A stretch of 64,000 bases of DNA from Saccharopolyspora gloriosae (GTDB lineage: Bacteria; Actinomycetota; Actinomycetes; Mycobacteriales; Pseudonocardiaceae): positions 3,349,501-3,413,500 of the forward strand of contig NZ_JACHIV010000001.1 in assembly GCF_014203325.1 (NCBI RefSeq). Reading direction: 5' to 3'. Made by a program: the position numbers and the translations under genes. Shown here piece by piece: positions 4,261 through 60,354 of this stretch. The first letter of the stretch is position 1, and each line of letters begins with the position of its first letter. The notes under the pieces are model-generated. The model was not told the DNA's origin. It worked only from the letters and a program-made list of their open reading frames with translations, and searched no databases.

Positions 4261-6714
4261 ATGCAGAACAGGCTCGCCCGCACGGTGCGGACGGCACTGC
4301 TCATCGGGGCAGGCAGTGCGGTCACACTGGTCCTCGTCCCGACCGCCATCAGCATCGGGACCGGCGGAAAGCTCCCCGGATTCCTCCAACCGCTGGCGAC
4401 GTTCCTGTGGCCGCTGGTCATCGTGTTCCTGCTGTTCGCCGCCGCGCTCGCCGCGTGGGAACGCATCACCAACGCCGACAAGCCCATCACCGCGCGCCGG
4501 CTCAACTCGCCGTCGAACCGCGAACGGTCCGTGCAGAGCACCGAGCGTTACGCCCGCGAACGGCTCAACGGCTCCCTCGCCGAACACGTCGCGCAACTGC
4601 TCGACGTCGACGAGGTGCCCGCGACGGTCGCCCGCCCGGCGGACGTCGTCGTGCAGCTCAACCAAGGCGGGAAATCCCGGCTGCCCGCCCACGCCGACCT
4701 GCCCGAGACCCTCGACGACGCCAACGGCGCGCTGCTGATCCTCGGCGCGCCCGGCTCCGGCAAGTCGACGCTGCTGCTGGAGCTCACCCGTGCGCTGTCG
4801 CTGCGGGCCGCGGGCGACCAGCGGCGGCCGATCCCGTTCATCATCGACCTCGGATCCTGGGCGATGTCCGGGTGGCGGTGGGACAACCGCAGGCCCGCGC
4901 CGCCCGCCGACTTCGAGAAGTGGCTGCTGCGCGAGATCGAACGCCGCTACACCGTGCACCCCTCGCTCGGCCGGATCTGGCTCGAACAGGGCAAGGTCGG
5001 GCTGATGCTCGACGGGCTCGACGAGGTCCCGCCCGAATACCAGGAACGCTGCGTCAACGAGATCAACAAGCTGCGCGACTCGTTCATCATCCGGGAACTC
5101 GTGGTCTGCTGCCGCAGCGAGGAGCACGAAGCGCTCACCACGCCGCTGCAGCTGAACAACTCCGTCACGATCAACCCGCTCACCCGCAAGCAGGTCGTGG
5201 AGTTCTTCACCCGCATCGGCCCCCGCGTGGACGGCGTGCGCTCCGCGCTGCGCACCGACCCGGAGCTGTGGCGCCTGCTGGACTCGCCGCTGATGCTGAG
5301 CCTGATGGCGCTCGCCTACCAGGACCGGCCGTCGTCGGAGATCCGGCTCAGCGGCGCGCTCCCGCAGCGGCGGCGCCAGGTGTTCGACGCCTACCTCACC
5401 GCCGTCCCCACCCGGGAGGCCGACGACCTCGGCTATCCGCCGGAGAAGGTGCTGCGGACGCTGCGCTTCCTCGCGCGGGTCTCGGCGAGCCCGCTGTGCA
5501 ACGACCTCACGGCTCGCACCCGGTTGCCGAGCCTCGTCGCCTGGGCGCGCTTCCTGCCGTCGAGCACGCTGGTGCACGTGTTCGGGCGCGGACTTCCCGG
5601 CGTGCTCGCCGGATCCGTCACCGGTGCCACGCTGGCGATGGGCATGCTGCTGGGACCCGCGTCCGCGCTGGTGACGGCGCTGCTGCTCGTCGGCTACGTG
5701 GCGTTCCTCGACCACCTCTCGACGCTGCCGTGGGTCCGCCCTGCGCAGAAGTCCGGCACCATCCCGCAAGGCTGGATCACCGCCGCCTGCGGGTACCTGC
5801 TCGGGCTGGTCGTGAGCCTGGCGCTGGTCGGGCTCATCACGCCCGCCACGAACTGGCTCGCGGCGCAGCCGCTGTGGGTCGGGGTGCCCGTGGTGATCCT
5901 GACGGCGTTCCTGACGATCATGAGCGCGGTCGAAGCGTGGTCGAAGATGCCCGGCAACAGCGCGGCGCTCGGGGCGGCCGGGTCGGTGCTCGTCGGCGTC
6001 TCGATGTTCTGGATCGGGCCGCAGGAGCTGCTGACCTCGATGGGCATCGGCGTGGTGCTGGGCATCGTCGCGGGACTCACCACCGCGGCCCGCGACGAGG
6101 TGTGGTGGCAATTCGGCGAGGACCAGTACGAAGCGTTCGACGGGCAGGGTTCCAAGCTGCTGAAGAACTCCGCTCCCCTGGTCGGCGCGGCCGGACTGAT
6201 GGGCGTGCTGCCGGTGCTGTTCTCCGGAACGCTGCTCGACGAACGCGCCCTCGACACGGGAATCGGCCTCCTGGTCGCGGGACTCGCCGCACCCGCCGCG
6301 TGGCACGCCGACGTGTTCCCCTTCGACAGCGCGAAGAACGCAGCCTCCGAATGGCTGGCGCGGGCGATGGCGCTGAGCGAACTGCCGGTCCGCCGGGCGC
6401 GGTTGCTGCGCGGGCTCGCGGAGCACAGCATGCTGTCCCGCGTGGACGGTGGGTACCGGTTCACGCACCTGCTGCTGCGCGATCACCTGCTCGGCTACGA
6501 GCGGAAACCGGCGAAGAAGCCGGGCGGCGAAGAGGCCACGGACTCCGATGCGGCGGAGAAGAGCTCGTCCGGCACCGGCGAATCCACGAGCTCGGACGAG
6601 GCGGCGAAGGCGGACTCGCCGGAGCAAACACCCTCCGATGCCGGGGCGGATTCCGGTTCAGGAGAGGAGAAGGCCGCGGCGGACCCGGCGAAGCCCGGCG
6701 CCGCGAAGTCCTGA
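4261..6714 (+). CDS. Membrane-anchored NACHT-domain STAND NTPase
   Basis: This is an 817-aa protein. Two membrane helices lie near the N-terminus (about residues 10-30 and 45-65). A NACHT-type P-loop NTPase follows, with Walker A GAPGSGKST at 162-170 and Walker B VGLMLDGLDEVP at 246-257, whose D-G-L-D-E-V-P is characteristic of NACHT. After a helical linker come about eight further hydrophobic helices (about residues 440-690). A short cytosolic segment (LAEHSMLSRVDGGYRFTHLL) is the winged-helix-like end of many NACHT modules. The last ~60 residues are a low-complexity Ser/Glu/Lys tail. NACHT proteins are signal-transducing switches, and bacterial NACHTs include antiphage sensors related to animal NLRs. 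The membrane module in place of a repeat sensor suggests membrane sensing or membrane-directed effector action (inference). It is monocistronic, with a hairpin after the stop. Confidence 0.85.
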   Translation: MQNRLARTVRTALLIGAGSAVTLVLVPTAISIGTGGKLPGFLQPLATFLWPLVIVFLLFAAALAAWERITNADKPITARRLNSPSNRERSVQSTERYARERLNGSLAEHVAQLLDVDEVPATVARPADVVVQLNQGGKSRLPAHADLPETLDDANGALLILGAPGSGKSTLLLELTRALSLRAAGDQRRPIPFIIDLGSWAMSGWRWDNRRPAPPADFEKWLLREIERRYTVHPSLGRIWLEQGKVGLMLDGLDEVPPEYQERCVNEINKLRDSFIIRELVVCCRSEEHEALTTPLQLNNSVTINPLTRKQVVEFFTRIGPRVDGVRSALRTDPELWRLLDSPLMLSLMALAYQDRPSSEIRLSGALPQRRRQVFDAYLTAVPTREADDLGYPPEKVLRTLRFLARVSASPLCNDLTARTRLPSLVAWARFLPSSTLVHVFGRGLPGVLAGSVTGATLAMGMLLGPASALVTALLLVGYVAFLDHLSTLPWVRPAQKSGTIPQGWITAACGYLLGLVVSLALVGLITPATNWLAAQPLWVGVPVVILTAFLTIMSAVEAWSKMPGNSAALGAAGSVLVGVSMFWIGPQELLTSMGIGVVLGIVAGLTTAARDEVWWQFGEDQYEAFDGQGSKLLKNSAPLVGAAGLMGVLPVLFSGTLLDERALDTGIGLLVAGLAAPAAWHADVFPFDSAKNAASEWLARAMALSELPVRRARLLRGLAEHSMLSRVDGGYRFTHLLLRDHLLGYERKPAKKPGGEEATDSDAAEKSSSGTGESTSSDEAAKADSPEQTPSDAGADSGSGEEKAAADPAKPGAAKS

Positions 6715-20748: not shown

Positions 20749-20930
20749 CGTCTTGTCAGCGGCGAAGCCGCTGAGCAGCGACCGCCAAAGCAACCGGCAC
20801 CGCCGCGGGTTCTCAGCGGGATTCTCGCGAGGACAGCTTTTTCCCTCGTGGCGGAGCCACTTGGGAAAAAGATCCCGCAGCGAGAATCCCGCTGAGGTTC
20901 CGCCACCCGCCCCCTACGCAGAGCGAGACG
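20749..20930 (-). repeat. Dispersed structured repeat, copy A
   Basis: This is a full copy of the family described at 53111 and 60177, oriented on the minus strand. It begins about 26 nt downstream of the methyltransferase stop with GGTGGCGGAACC. A 16-bp perfect stem (20812-20827 with 20881-20896) has the variable centre GGATT/AATCC. The 53-nt core (20828-20880) carries a 9-bp CTTTTTCCC/GGGAAAAAG stem and a GTGGC/GCCAC tip. The distal tail hairpin TCAGCGGC/GCCGCTGA is at 20757-20776. It lies between two convergent genes. Short frames inside it are not credible genes. Confidence 0.9.
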
Positions 20931-20935
20931 GGAAA

Positions 20936-21751
20936 TCAGGGTTTCCGGGCGATTCCGCCGTACATTGCTATGTCGGCGTCGGGCACCGACAGGTGCTCGT
21001 CGTCGTCGGGGCGCCACTTGTGCATCTGCACGAGGCCCGGGTCGACCAGTTCCAGGCCGTCGAAGAACCGCTCCGCGGCGGCCTTGTCGCGGAACCGCAT
21101 GCTCTCGCCGTGCTCGTGGTAGGTGTCGGTGACCTTGGCCAGCATCTCGGGCGCGAAGTCGTCGGTCGCCACCGTGGCCGCCACGTAGCTGCCCGAGGGC
21201 ATCGCGTCGATGATGCGGCGCACCACCGCCAGCGCTTCGTCGTCGTCCTCGATGAAGTGCACGATCGCGATGAGCATCAGGCCGATCGGCCGGTCCTGGT
21301 CCAGCGTCTCGTGCAGCTCGGGTGCCGCGAGCAGGGCTTCGGGTTCGCGCATGTCGGACTGGATGTACGCGGTGCGGCCCCGCTCCGCGCTGGTCATGAG
21401 CGCGCGGGCGTGGGCGAGCACGATGGGGTCGTTGTCGGTGTAGACGACCCTGGTCTCCGGCGCCACCTCCTGCACGATCTCGTGCAGGTTGGGCGGAGTG
21501 GGGATGCCGGTACCGATGTCGAGGAACTGGCGGACACCGCATTCCTGCGCGAGGAACCGGGCTGCTCGGTGCATGAACGTGCGGTTCGCCCGCATGTGCA
21601 CGCCGAGCGCGGGCCAGATCTGCAAGGTCGCTTCGGCCGCGGCGCGATCGACGGCGTAGTTGTCCTTGCCACCGAGGATGTAGTCGTAGATCCGCGCACC
21701 GTGGGCGCGATCCGTGCGCAGGTCCACTTCCGGGCGCATTCCGTCCGCCAT
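20936..21751 (-). CDS. SAM-dependent methyltransferase, DUF574 (Methyltransf_19) family
   Basis: This is a 271-aa protein. ARIYDYILGGKDNYAVDRAA is the hallmark N-terminus of this actinobacterial family. VRQFLDIGTGIPTPPNLHEI and VVYTDNDPIVLAHARALM form the SAM-binding site (motif I DIGTGIPT, acidic loop TDND). These genes are highly amplified in Streptomyces and Pseudonocardiaceae, often near XRE regulators, and their substrates are unknown. It is a single gene on the minus strand, followed by repeat copy A. Confidence 0.93.
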   Translation of the reverse strand: MADGMRPEVDLRTDRAHGARIYDYILGGKDNYAVDRAAAEATLQIWPALGVHMRANRTFMHRAARFLAQECGVRQFLDIGTGIPTPPNLHEIVQEVAPETRVVYTDNDPIVLAHARALMTSAERGRTAYIQSDMREPEALLAAPELHETLDQDRPIGLMLIAIVHFIEDDDEALAVVRRIIDAMPSGSYVAATVATDDFAPEMLAKVTDTYHEHGESMRFRDKAAAERFFDGLELVDPGLVQMHKWRPDDDEHLSVPDADIAMYGGIARKP

Positions 21752-51685: not shown

Positions 51686-53101
51686 ATGGCTGGGGCTGTC
51701 GCCGCGGTCGACCTGGGCGCCACCAGCGGCCGGGTGATGCTCGGTCGCGCCGGGCCGGACGAACTCCGGATGCGCACCGTCGCCCGGTTCCCGAACCGGC
51801 CGGTGCGCATCCGGGGAGCGCTGCACTGGAACGTGCTGGAGCTGTACCGGGAGGTGTGCGACGGCGTTCGGCAGGCGACGCGGGAGGCGGACCTCGCGAG
51901 CATCGGCATCGACTCGTGGGCCGTGGACTACGCGCTGCTGCGCGGCGGCCGGATGCTCGGGATGCCGCACCACTACCGCGACGACCGCAACGCGGCGGCG
52001 GTCCCTACCGTGCACGAGATCGTAGGTCCTGCCGAGCTGTACGAGGTGAACGGCTTGCAGCACCTGCCGTTCACCACCACCTTCCAACTCGCCGCGGATC
52101 GGGAGGACGGGCTGCTGCCGCTGGCCGAGCGGCTGCTGCTCATCCCGGACCTGCTGGCCTACTGGCTCACCGGCGAGCAGGTCGCGGAGCGCACGAACGC
52201 CTCCACCACGGGCCTGCTCGACGCGCGGACGTCGCAGTGGTCGGAGGTGCTGCTGGACCGGCTCGGCGTCGGCCGGGACCTGGTGGCGCCGCTGGTCTCG
52301 CCCGGCGAGCGGATCGGCGAGATCACCCCGGAAGTCGCCGACGAGCTCGGCGCGGGCCGGTCGGCGGTCACGGCGGTCGGCTCGCACGACACCGCGTCCG
52401 CGGTGGTCGCCGTGCCCGCCCGCGACGACTCGTTCGCCTACATCTCCTGCGGAACGTGGTCGCTGGTCGGCGCGGAACTGGACCGGCCGCTGTTCTCCGA
52501 GCAGGGCCGGGCGGCGAACTTCACCAACGAGCTCGGCGTCGACGGCAGGATCCGCTACCTGCACAACGTGATGGGCCTGTGGCTGCTCACCGAATCCGTC
52601 GACCGGTGGAGCCGGGCGGCCCCGGCGGTCGATCTGGAATCGCTGCTCGCGGAGGCCGCCGAGATCCCGCCCGGCAGGGTCGCCGAGTTCGACCCGAACG
52701 ACGCCAGGTTCCTGCCGCCCGGCGACATGCCCGCCCGCATCGCGGCCTGGCTCACCGAGCACGACCGGCCGGTTCCGGGCACCCGCGCCGAATTCGTGCG
52801 CTGCATCCTGGAAAGCCTCGCCACGGCCTACGCCGAGTCCATCGACCTGCTCGAACGGATCACCGGCCGGGCACTGTCCACCGTGCACGTCGTCGGCGGC
52901 GGGGCGCGGAACACGCTGCTGTGCCGGCTGACCGCCGAGCGCACCGGCCGCACGGTGATCGCCGGGCCGGTGGAGGCCACCGCCCTCGGCAACGTCCTCG
53001 TGCAGTCCCGAGCGGCGGGGACGGTCAGCGGCACCTTGGAGTCGATGCGGGACCTGGTGCGCCGCACGTGCGAACTCCGGCACTACCGGCCGTCCCGCTG
53101 A
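51686..53101 (+). CDS. rhaB: Rhamnulokinase
   Basis: This 471-aa FGGY kinase from an ATG has a strong GAGGAGG site. AVAAVDLGATSGRVMLGRAG (the RhaB ATP loop), IGIDSWAVDYALLRGGRMLG, GLQHLPFTTTFQLAAD, GSHDTASAVVAVPA, ISCGTWSLVGAELDRPL and HVVGGGARNTLLCRLTAE are diagnostic. It makes L-rhamnulose-1-phosphate for RhaD. It is 173 bp after rhaD on the same strand, so probably the same regulon with possible extra promoter. Repeat copy B starts 10 bases past its stop. Confidence 0.94.
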   Translation: MAGAVAAVDLGATSGRVMLGRAGPDELRMRTVARFPNRPVRIRGALHWNVLELYREVCDGVRQATREADLASIGIDSWAVDYALLRGGRMLGMPHHYRDDRNAAAVPTVHEIVGPAELYEVNGLQHLPFTTTFQLAADREDGLLPLAERLLLIPDLLAYWLTGEQVAERTNASTTGLLDARTSQWSEVLLDRLGVGRDLVAPLVSPGERIGEITPEVADELGAGRSAVTAVGSHDTASAVVAVPARDDSFAYISCGTWSLVGAELDRPLFSEQGRAANFTNELGVDGRIRYLHNVMGLWLLTESVDRWSRAAPAVDLESLLAEAAEIPPGRVAEFDPNDARFLPPGDMPARIAAWLTEHDRPVPGTRAEFVRCILESLATAYAESIDLLERITGRALSTVHVVGGGARNTLLCRLTAERTGRTVIAGPVEATALGNVLVQSRAAGTVSGTLESMRDLVRRTCELRHYRPSR

Positions 53102-53110
53102 GCGTCCTTG

Positions 53111-53294
53111 CTCGTTCTGCGTGGGGTCGGGTGGCGGAACCTCAGCGTTCTTCTCGCTGCGGGATCTTTTTCCCAAGTGGCTCCGCCACGAGGGAAAAAG
53201 CCGTCCTCGCGAGAAGAACGCTGAGAACCCGCGGGTGGTCGGTTTGCTCTGGTGGTCACTGCTCAGCGGCTTCGCCCCTGACAAGACAACGACG
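53111..53294 (+). repeat. Dispersed structured repeat, copy B
   Basis: This full copy starts with CTCGTTCTGCGTGGGG and GGTGGCGGAACC at 53131. The perfect 16-bp stem (53141-53156 with 53210-53225) has variable centre TTCTT/AAGAA. The 53-nt core 53157-53209 includes CTTTTTCCC and GGGAAAAAG and a GTGGC/GCCAC tip. The tail contains CAGCGGCTTCGCC with one mismatch in the hairpin. It is on the plus strand after rhaB and before the convergent hydrolase gene. Confidence 0.92.
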
Positions 53295-58027: not shown

Positions 58028-59532
58028 GCGGCACCTTCCTCGGCATGCCCACCGCTCCCCCGCGCGGAGCCGGCAACCTGCGCGGCGAGGAACCGTTCCC
58101 CGCCGCGGCCCGCACCGAACTCGGCAACACCCAGATGCGCCGCAACGTCGGCAAGGCCACCCGCACGATCCGGAACAAGCGCCTGCAGGTCACCGGGGAG
58201 CTGCCCGACTGGGAGCAGCTGCGCTCGGCGGGCGCGGCGGTCAAGCGCGACGTCATGGCCAGGCTGCCCGAGCTGCTGGAGCAGTTCGAACGGGCGGTGA
58301 CCGAGCGCGGCGGGCACGTGCACTGGGCGCGCGACGCCGCCGAGGCCAACGCGATCGTCACCGGTCTGGTCAAGGACACCGGCGCCGACGAAGCCCTCAA
58401 GGTCAAGTCCATGGCCACCCAGGAGATCGGGCTCAACGAGCACCTCGCCGACGAGGGCATCACCGCTATCGAAACAGACCTGGCGGAGCTGATCGTGCAG
58501 CTCGGCGAGGACCGCCCCTCGCACATCCTGGTGCCCGCGATCCACCGCAACCGCTCCGAGATCCGCGAGATCTTCCTGCGCTCCATGCCGGGCGTGGACC
58601 CCGGCTTGGACGACGACCCGACGCACCTGGCCAACGCGGCGCGGCGGTTCCTGCGCGAGCGGTTCATGCGGGCGCGGGTCGCCATCTCCGGGGCCAACTT
58701 CGGCATCGCCGAGACCGGCACGCTGTCGGTGGTGGAGTCCGAGGGCAACGGCCGGATGTGCCTGACCATGCCGGAGACGCTGATCACGGTGATGGGACTG
58801 GAGAAGCTGATCCCCGCCTACGCCGACCTCGAAGTGTTCCTGCAGCTGCTGCCCCGCTCCTCCACCGGCGAGCGGATGAACCCGTACACCTCGATGTGGA
58901 CCGGCGTCACGCCCGACGACGGACCGCAGGAGTTCCACCTGGTGCTGCTGGACAACGGCCGCACCGCGACGCTGGCCGACGAGGTGGGTCGCGAGGCGCT
59001 GCACTGCATCCGGTGCTCGGCCTGCCTCAACGTGTGCCCCGTCTACGAGCGGACCGGCGGGCACGCCTACGGCTCCACCTATCCGGGGCCGATCGGCGCG
59101 GTGCTGACCCCGCAGCTGGCCGGGATGGACACCGGAGGCGGTGATCCGAACTCGTCCCTGCCGTACGCGTCGAGTCTGTGCGGGGCCTGCTTCGACGCCT
59201 GTCCCGTGAAGATCGACATACCGTCGTTGCTGGTGGAGCTGCGCCACCAGCACGTCGAGGAAGCCCGCGTCAGCGCGGAGCAGCTGATGATGAAGGCCGC
59301 TTCCACGGCCATGGCCACCTCCGGCCGGTGGACCGCGGCGCAGCGCGCGGCGCAGCTGGGACGGCTGCTCGGGCGCGGCGGGCGGATCCGGACGCTGCCG
59401 CCGCCGGGCAGCGCTTGGACGGCGGCGCGGGATCTGCCGGTACCGCCGAAGCAGACCTTCCGGCAGTGGTGGGATTCCGCGGAGGGCCGGGCCGCGATCG
59501 ACGACGCCCACCGCGAAGGAGGCCGGCCGTGA
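58024..59532 (+). CDS. lutB: L-lactate utilisation protein LutB (ferredoxin-type)
   Basis: This is a 502-aa protein. An N-terminal LUD domain (RARVAISGANFGIAETGTLSVVESEGNGR) is followed by two 4Fe-4S motifs: CIRCSACLNVCPVY (residues about 329-342) and CGACFDACPVKIDIP. It forms the Fe-S core of the lactate dehydrogenase complex that passes electrons to quinone. It is coupled upstream to lutA (ATGA) and downstream to lutC (GTGA). Confidence 0.95.
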   Translation: MSGTFLGMPTAPPRGAGNLRGEEPFPAAARTELGNTQMRRNVGKATRTIRNKRLQVTGELPDWEQLRSAGAAVKRDVMARLPELLEQFERAVTERGGHVHWARDAAEANAIVTGLVKDTGADEALKVKSMATQEIGLNEHLADEGITAIETDLAELIVQLGEDRPSHILVPAIHRNRSEIREIFLRSMPGVDPGLDDDPTHLANAARRFLRERFMRARVAISGANFGIAETGTLSVVESEGNGRMCLTMPETLITVMGLEKLIPAYADLEVFLQLLPRSSTGERMNPYTSMWTGVTPDDGPQEFHLVLLDNGRTATLADEVGREALHCIRCSACLNVCPVYERTGGHAYGSTYPGPIGAVLTPQLAGMDTGGGDPNSSLPYASSLCGACFDACPVKIDIPSLLVELRHQHVEEARVSAEQLMMKAASTAMATSGRWTAAQRAAQLGRLLGRGGRIRTLPPPGSAWTAARDLPVPPKQTFRQWWDSAEGRAAIDDAHREGGRP

Positions 59533-60152
59533 ACGCCCGCGACACCGTGCTGGGCCGGGTGCGCGACGCGCTCGCCATCGCCCCGCCCGCCGCCGTGCAG
59601 GTCCCGCGCGACTACCGCCGGGACCGCGACCTCCCGGCCGACGAGAAGCGGGAGCTGCTGGTCGACCGGCTGGAGGACTACCAGGCCACGGTGCACCAGT
59701 GCGCCGCTGCCGACGTCGCGGCCACCGTCGCGAGGGCGCTCGGCGGCGCCGCGCGCATCGGCGTCCCCGCGGGTCTCGACCGCGGGTGGCTCGCGGAGTT
59801 CGGCGGCGAGGTCGTGGTCGACTCCGCCGAGGTGCCCCCGGACCGCCTCGACGCGTTGGACGGCGTCGTCACCGGGTCGGCGGTGACCTGCGCCGAAACC
59901 GGGACGATCTTCCTCGACGCGTCCCCGGACCAGGGGCGGCGCGCGCTCACCCTCGTTCCGGACCTGCACGTGTGCGTGGTGGCGCTGTCCGCGGTCGTCA
60001 CCGGCATCCCCGAAGCGGTGGCCCGGCTCGAACCGACCCGGCCGACGACCCTGATCAGCGGCCCGTCGGCGACCTCGGACATCGAGCTGGACCGGGTCGA
60101 GGGCGTGCACGGCCCGCGCACCCTGCACGTGGTCCTGCTGCTGGACGGCTGA
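59529..60152 (+). CDS. lutC: L-lactate utilisation protein LutC
   Basis: This 207-aa protein starts at a GTG overlapping the lutB stop. It has a LUD domain with VTGSAVTCAETGTIFLDASPDQGRRALTLVPDLHVCVV and TLISGPSATSDIELDRVEGVHGP, the typical LutC end (G-P-S-A-T-S-D-I-E). It assists the LutAB complex. Its stop is followed 25 bp later by repeat copy C. Confidence 0.94.
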   Translation: MNARDTVLGRVRDALAIAPPAAVQVPRDYRRDRDLPADEKRELLVDRLEDYQATVHQCAAADVAATVARALGGAARIGVPAGLDRGWLAEFGGEVVVDSAEVPPDRLDALDGVVTGSAVTCAETGTIFLDASPDQGRRALTLVPDLHVCVVALSAVVTGIPEAVARLEPTRPTTLISGPSATSDIELDRVEGVHGPRTLHVVLLLDG

Positions 60153-60176: not shown

Positions 60177-60354
60177 GGGTAGGGGTCGGGTAGCGGAACC
60201 TCAGCGGTTTCCTCGCGAGGACAGCTTTTTCCCTCGTGGCGGAGCCACTCGGGAAAAAGATCCCGCAGCGAGGAAACCGCTGAGAACCCGCCGGTGGTCA
60301 CCTTGCTCAAGCTGGTCACTGCTCAGCGGCTTCGCCGCTGACAGGACAACGACG
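60177..60354 (+). repeat. Dispersed structured repeat, copy C (core inverted)
   Basis: This full copy follows lutC with leading edge GGGTAGGGGTCGGGTAGCGGAACC (read in two parts from 60177). The perfect 16-bp stem (60200-60215 with 60269-60284) has variable centre GTTTC/GAAAC. The 53-nt core (60216-60268) is in the opposite orientation to that of copy B relative to the same flanks and tail. The tail hairpin TCAGCGGC-TTC-GCCGCTGA is perfect at 60322-60340. Confidence 0.92.

Follow-up and report, generated by a model that had tools for sequence, protein, structure and literature searches.

A family of intergenic palindromic repeats in Saccharopolyspora with a hypervariable, self-matching stem segment

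Described palindromic repeats and the Saccharopolyspora element

In the excerpts of the literature cited here, YPAL (RU-2) of Yersinia is a non-coding element of ∼170 bp with internal inverted repeats, which is transcribed with upstream genes, occurs at filled and empty sites and shows target duplications of 3-26 bp, and ERIC (IRU) is a transcribed intergenic palindromic repeat of ∼127 bp whose effect on mRNA stability depends on orientation (PMC2229807). REP and REPIN sequences form hundreds of extragenic palindromes per genome, with two conserved halves and a variable spacer carrying compensatory changes (PMC3116915). The REP units measure 20-40 bp and occur with RAYT (PMC3733652), and some of those in E. 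coli sit close behind stop codons, stalling ribosomes when they lie within 15 nt of the stop (PMC12306157). Template switching at inverted repeats, described for rRNA stems and short yeast repeats, introduces multi-base compensatory changes in one event, homogenises the arms and inverts the spacer or loop (PMC8794818, PMC8604942).

We analysed a window of 64,000 nucleotides, by which we mean the whole stretch from 3,349,501 to 3,413,500 of the 6.83-Mb single-contig genome of Saccharopolyspora gloriosae, in which three copies of a structured repeat had been predicted. Like REP/REPIN sequences, the repeat is a high-copy extragenic palindrome with compensatory changes: the exact pattern GCGGAACCTCAG-N7-CTCG occurs at 320 sites in this genome and the reversed pattern at none, and the paired positions covary. 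Unlike REP units, it is a 99-nt hairpin with a tail, in a genome without a Y1 transposase. In 123 of 182 copies it lies ≤60 nt behind a stop codon on the same strand, a position expected of a YPAL/ERIC-type MITE; De Gregorio reportedly noted in 2006 that YPAL inserts close behind stop codons. YPAL differs from the present repeat in sequence and phylum, and target duplications of the kind seen for YPAL could not be read at the empty sites here. We know of no hypervariable heptamer in YPAL. ERIC has another sequence, and its TA-flanked ends and short terminal inverted repeats were not found as a general feature of our copies. Arm homogenisation and spacer inversion, as in template switching, are both seen in the repeat; here, however, template switching would act repeatedly on the scattered copies of a single family, which would also exchange arm blocks from one locus to another.

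Rfam gave no match in the window at the gathering score, and a search of four loci at E up to 1 returned one weak unrelated match only; a known RNA family is excluded by these searches. The original prediction that no named family fits is upheld by the lack of an Rfam match and of a description in open-licence papers. The repeat would represent a new family of a known kind, the intergenic palindromic repeat, its novelty lying in a hypervariable self-matching heptamer and in full turnover at fixed sites.

Anatomy, distribution and position of the copies

A genome-wide search carried the family far beyond the three predicted copies. Exact-pattern sites were found in 15 of 100 genomes searched: in all six of the genus Saccharopolyspora, S. 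gloriosae included (21 to 320 sites), in 8 of 54 from other genera of the family (1 to 52 sites, with 52 in genome G019), and as a single site in one of 40 from the rest of the order. Chance repeats are excluded by the reversed-pattern controls, which matched nothing in S. gloriosae and once overall, in G043. Among the matches listed (80 of at least 120 stretches), the left module appeared in Saccharopolyspora species, Halopolyspora algeriensis and four Amycolatopsis species, and the closest named relative encountered was Saccharopolyspora sp. NFXS83, whose neighbouring proteins were mostly 92-100% identical. For analysis within S. gloriosae, we assembled 182 copies from BLAST matches and from two pattern searches, with 252 and 225 sites, each of which contributed the 100 places at the head of its list; 179 are canonical, and that at 2272323 resembles a chance match.

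The hairpin has a fixed frame, which reads GCGG, AAC, CTCAG, a variable heptamer, CTCGC, TGCGGGAT, core stem, tip, the complementary arms, CTGAG, AAC and CCGC. CTCAG-N7-CTCGC pairs with GCGAG-N7'-CTGAG to form a 17-bp stem, outside which lies a GCGG/CCGC helix with an AAC/AAC internal loop. A perfect stem had been predicted correctly, but its frame was given as 16 bp (CTCAGCG-N5-CTCG); the CG following CTCAG is common to the three window copies and variable genome-wide. The core stem is CTTTTTCCC in most S. gloriosae copies, with the tip GTGGC-TCC-GCCAC. Core variants include GATTTC and CATTTTTCC types and versions whose left arm is longer by ∼15 bases; in NFXS83 and G019 there are also core-less copies with CTCGCGAG. 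Two classes of tail could be distinguished, class I with a single hairpin, CTCAGCGGC-TTC-GCCGCTGAC (119 of the 182 copies), and class II, which has GACGTGGGC and several small hairpins in a row (59 copies), with four copies unclear.

Individual loci depart from this plan in several ways. At loci L245, L286 and L307 the core is exactly absent and CTCGCGAG remains between the heptamers. An alternative core module, with an extra GCCCCTGGCCGGTGT-type stretch in the left arm, is found in S. gloriosae at 1603408, 2286610, 2797177 and 3809029 and in another species at locus L321 of genome G006. Many left modules contain GTAG, which, like CGTC, serves as a tag at one end of REP palindromes. The left module is fused straight to the small CTCAGCGGC..GCCGCTGAC hairpin at locus L214 (minus strand near 6695), without the 99-nt hairpin, and at locus L209 two S. 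gloriosae copies (4639640 and 4639862) lie head to head ∼200 bp apart. The small hairpins of class II tails in S. gloriosae (for example at loci L170 and L152) have 3-nt TNC loops on the sense strand in 125 of 165 cases and GNA loops in none, placing GNA on the opposite strand; the background held 78 TNC and 80 GNA loops among 1442. GNA loops are said, from work by Hirao and Yoshizawa, to make very stable DNA mini-hairpins. The loops may point to a single-stranded DNA form of the bottom strand, or alternatively reflect shared descent of the hairpins.

The three window copies are present at the places and on the strands predicted (Table 1), with a mean column identity of 85%. As predicted, the stem centre differs between them and pairs perfectly inside each; the tail hairpin, predicted to be conserved, has one pair broken in copy B. 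The RNA fold z was -5.8 for copy B and -7.8 for copy C, while DNA folding of the copy B hairpin gave z values of -8.5 and -9.2 on its two strands, with no consistent difference between strands in DNA folding; by folding, the RNA and DNA forms of the hairpin are both very stable. An inverted core had been proposed for copy C, and its core is identical to that of copy B at 51 of 53 positions as the reverse complement and at 33 of 53 in the forward direction. Among the 182 copies, 168 cores are forward, two are inverted (copy C and a copy at 53281) and 12 are unclassified, and core inversion in S. gloriosae is thus real but rare. Apparent inversions in other genomes were mostly core-less copies or reverse readings of ordinary ones, with locus L147 a likely true inversion. 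In agreement with the claim that no transposase is present, Pfam transposase families had no match among the seven ORFs neighbouring the window copies.

Table 1. Coordinates of the three window copies, their parts and the genes upstream of them
Feature	Position in window	Strand	Basis
Copy A, whole unit (left module, hairpin, class I tail)	20749..20930	-	Extent as originally predicted; ends not fixed
Gene upstream of copy A, Methyltransf_19	20936-21751	-	Gene call, Pfam
Copy A, 99-nt hairpin, core forward	20805..20903	-	Sequence
Copy A, left heptamer CGGGATT	20885..20891	-	Sequence
Copy A, right heptamer, complement of left	20817..20823	-	Sequence
Copy A, class I tail with small hairpin	20750..20783	-	Sequence
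Copy B, whole unit	53111..53294	+	Extent as originally predicted; ends not fixed
Gene upstream of copy B, FGGY carbohydrate kinase	51686-53101	+	Gene call, Pfam
Copy B, 99-nt hairpin, core forward	53134..53232	+	Sequence, DNA fold
Copy B, left heptamer CGTTCTT	53146..53152	+	Sequence
Copy B, right heptamer	53214..53220	+	Sequence
Copy B, class I tail, small hairpin with one broken pair	53253..53294	+	Sequence
Copy C, whole unit	60177..60354	+	Extent as originally predicted; ends not fixed
Gene upstream of copy C, LUD-domain	59529-60152	+	Gene call, Pfam
Copy C, 99-nt hairpin	60193..60291	+	Sequence
Copy C, left heptamer CGGTTTC	60205..60211	+	Sequence
Copy C, right heptamer	60273..60279	+	Sequence
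Copy C, inverted 53-nt core (cores A and B forward)	60216..60268	+	Core comparison with B
Copy C, class I tail with small hairpin	60313..60354	+	Sequence

Copies show a sense-oriented preference for positions behind stop codons. The units had been said to start 26-30 nt past a stop codon; in fact they start 5, 9 and 24 nt past the stops in copies A, B and C (gene ends 20936, 53101 and 60152), and the conserved GCGGAAC begins at 32, 32 and 40 nt, respectively. With genes called by a simple codon-usage finder, GCGGAAC starts 0-60 nt past a same-strand stop codon in the 123 copies mentioned above and 20-50 nt past it in 117, all of them among the 179 canonical copies, which bears out genome-wide the proposed location in 3' regions. 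Stop-codon anchoring was alike in NFXS83, G019 and G006. Constant orientation relative to the upstream gene holds for the window copies only, since genome-wide 138 of the 182 copies have a same-strand gene upstream. Of the 180 copies flanked by a gene on either side, 76 lie in convergent and 8 in divergent gaps, compared with 131 and 126 of 708 background gaps in sampled regions. Across convergent gaps, the stop codon lies at a median of 38 nt to the left, a span that takes in the left module, and of 152 nt to the right, a span that takes in the tail.

Convergent copies of S. gloriosae are oriented with the leading strand in 57 of 76 cases (p 1.5e-5), the class I copies in 36 of 44 and the class II copies in 19 of 30, the latter not significant; the corresponding figures were 36 of 40 among the G019 sites listed and 18 of 21 for G006 sites. 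Genes run along the leading strand in 475 of 829 cases in S. gloriosae and in 85 of 144 near G019 copies. In these assignments origins were placed by dnaA and termini assumed to lie opposite, with a coarse GC skew for S. gloriosae only and none for G006 and G019. In G019, G006 and S. gloriosae, the repeats follow the direction of replication more closely than the genes do.

Most copies, lying past stops, should be transcribed as 3'-UTR hairpins, and they probably have a role in the 3' UTR. The usual stop distance of 20-50 nt exceeds the 15-nt range given for ribosome-stalling E. coli REPs in the excerpted account (PMC12306157). No U-run was seen behind the hairpins in the tails inspected by eye, so that a plain intrinsic terminator is unlikely. 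Our best guess for the function, by analogy with what is discussed for ERIC in the excerpts of PMC2229807, would be mRNA 3'-end protection or processing.

Arm matching and turnover of the heptamer

Covariation between the arms, which the original prediction had described in three copies, proved strong. We used 80 distinct 99-mers from four genomes, drawn randomly among distinct 99-mers having a forward core start (45 of 182 copies from S. gloriosae, 15 of 57 from NFXS83, 15 of 38 from G019 and 5 of 11 from G006). Standard pairs made up 94.2% of pair cells, and double-changed cells numbered 250; shuffles gave 69 and slid structures no more than 79. Double changes affected 15 pairs, against 10.8 in shuffles (1 of 500 shuffles was equally high), while one of the five measures, further pair types, showed no excess (37 against 36.9 in shuffles).

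The two heptamers are exactly complementary in 139 of 174 S. gloriosae copies (8 of the 182 were omitted for form), where shuffles gave a mean of 11.5 and, at best in 2000, 23. Exact matches were also in excess in NFXS83 (37 of 52; shuffles ≤19) and G019 (19 of 27; shuffles ≤17), and there was no excess in G006 (5 of 11; best shuffle 5). The hypervariable segment draws on 28 matched heptamer types in S. gloriosae, 26 of which have a one-step neighbour. TCGGTCT was seen 19 times against 0.24 expected under independent positions, a frequency from a biased sample because copies were taken from first listed places and BLAST matches. Heptamers thus recur as shared blocks, which indicates copying between loci. 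Ten copies carry at least three arm mismatches, and in eight of these both heptamers are known from other copies, as expected of half-switched hybrids, which these eight appear to be.

Turnover was assessed at 20 S. gloriosae sites paired one-to-one with NFXS83 by both flanks (88-99% identical, matches of at least 200 bases). These came from 23 candidate pairs, of which 5554466, 5550044 (a weak match) and 4419156 were dropped as single-flank; pairs 1709947 and 4418130 were set aside for short hairpins in NFXS83, leaving 18 with comparable hairpins. The heptamer differed at all 18 sites. Over both arms, 139 of 252 positions differed (55%). The level was 10.3% at third codon positions (237 of 2310) and 2.5% at the conserved positions of the hairpin (22 of 882). 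Random S. gloriosae copies differ from each other at 52% of arm positions, about the level of the sister pairs, and the heptamer is already saturated in this species pair; none of the changes could be traced as a single event inside one lineage. Differences amounted to 21% in the left module and 18% in the right, and the loop site before GTGGC differed in 7 of the 10 pairs readable on both sides. The arms nevertheless still matched in 16 of 18 S. gloriosae and 15 of 18 NFXS83 copies. Copies are therefore common to the two species in place and not in sequence, the heptamer and the flanking modules both differing at shared sites.

Many sites are shared between species, and some are filled in one genome and absent in a relative. 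Alignment of five candidate empty sites revealed no readable target duplication, with unclear boundaries. The counterpart of 5554466 (locus L250) is empty: the sister has a stop codon followed by a close GGTGAGCGCCCGC-type hairpin, and the S. gloriosae element lies between the two. The Y1 transposase family PF01797 was absent from S. gloriosae, G002, G003, G004 and G019 and matched in 2 of the 10 genomes searched, G005 and G006. RAYT-driven mobility is ruled out for S. gloriosae, where no Y1/RAYT transposase was found. The terminal inverted repeat score averaged 17.9 in class I, 15.9 in class II and 16.7 in random pairings, and the two ends match in a few class I copies; these scores do not support terminal inverted repeats as a general feature.

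Possible origins of the matched arms

On balance we favour the view that these are non-coding, high-copy palindromic repeats of Saccharopolyspora and some other family members, similar to REP, ERIC and YPAL but separate from them, and that copying from one locus to another, and from one arm to the other, rewrites their arms. Arm sequences would spread between loci through short ectopic conversion events and be re-matched at the DNA level, one arm being copied from the other by template switching inside the palindrome during replication. Such switching could also invert and delete cores; arm homogenisation together with spacer inversion is what template switching predicts, and their joint occurrence supports it. 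Selection against broken stems may assist re-matching, and amplification of subfamilies, visible in heptamer-tail linkage, would also contribute. The hairpins transcribed in 3' UTRs would protect, process or mark mRNA 3' ends.

A rather unlikely alternative is that RNA hairpin selection in the 3' UTR pairs the arms, with whole hairpins swapped by ordinary gene conversion and no arm-to-arm copying. The post-stop position, the sense orientation, the covariation and the very stable RNA folds would all follow from it, as would the linkage of heptamers to core-stem blocks (z 4-5). The heptamer cells broken by a transition are nevertheless not those that RNA would favour: the 37 such cells in four genomes comprised 16 sense-strand G-U and 21 A-C, and G-U made up 2 of 560 cells in A2 (heptamer pairs, 80 99-mers). 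RNA selection should tolerate G-U, and since G-U is no commoner than A-C, this speaks against RNA pairing as the main force. Markers lying between the two arms show little linkage to the heptamer at column 42 (z 2.6) and none at column 69 (z 0.8), yet the arms themselves are strongly associated (z 11-13), and core inversion would need a separate cause. The linkage to core-stem blocks and to tail class (z 15) suggests that whole-hairpin conversion or subfamily amplification contributes, and hairpins appear to move whole sometimes, not always. The original prediction had offered strand switching with palindrome correction or selection on an RNA or single-stranded DNA structure; for the heptamer, we favour the former, because all 18 orthologous heptamers differ, arms stay self-complementary and G-U is not favoured over A-C.

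The repeat could also be a MITE or REPIN still moved by a transposase that prefers post-stop sites, possibly via single-stranded DNA at replication forks, with new insertions replacing old copies. Sites at which a relative is without the element, leading-strand orientation beyond the gene bias (57/76 against 475/829) and the matching ends of a few class I copies are in line with this. We nevertheless consider it improbable, given that the Y1 transposase is missing from S. gloriosae and the four other genomes named above, that empty sites show no readable target duplication, that ends are on average barely more alike than those of random copies, and that many sites are shared between species. 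Least probable, in our estimation, is a double-stranded site for a dimeric chromosomal protein, in which a 7-bp spacer is free to vary and the hairpin is a by-product of symmetry: conserved half-sites do flank a heptamer of constant length and orientation is linked to replication, but a free spacer need not complement the other half 60 bp away, as it does in 139 of 174 copies. Conversion between loci combined with arm-to-arm copying is thus the most likely origin of the matched arms, and stem selection may act on top.

A functional RNA structure is usually proved by compensatory base changes. Between sister species, the divergence of the matched arms of this repeat is ∼5 times that of third codon positions, and such fast change without favoured G-U intermediates suggests that DNA-level arm copying may imitate RNA selection. 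More tentatively, we propose a self-editing palindrome family, in which the 7-bp segment is continually rewritten in DNA by copying from locus to locus and across the two arms; each site would thereby keep a perfect stem while its sequence runs quickly through a shared repertoire. If this is true, covariation without G-U intermediates would here be a product of DNA copying, and the rule that covariation proves functional RNA would fail. The many copies, the sister genomes and the hybrids make the persistence of perfect stems directly testable. Across this genus of antibiotic producers the family marks the 3' ends of genes, and it may help to shape the ends of their mRNAs.
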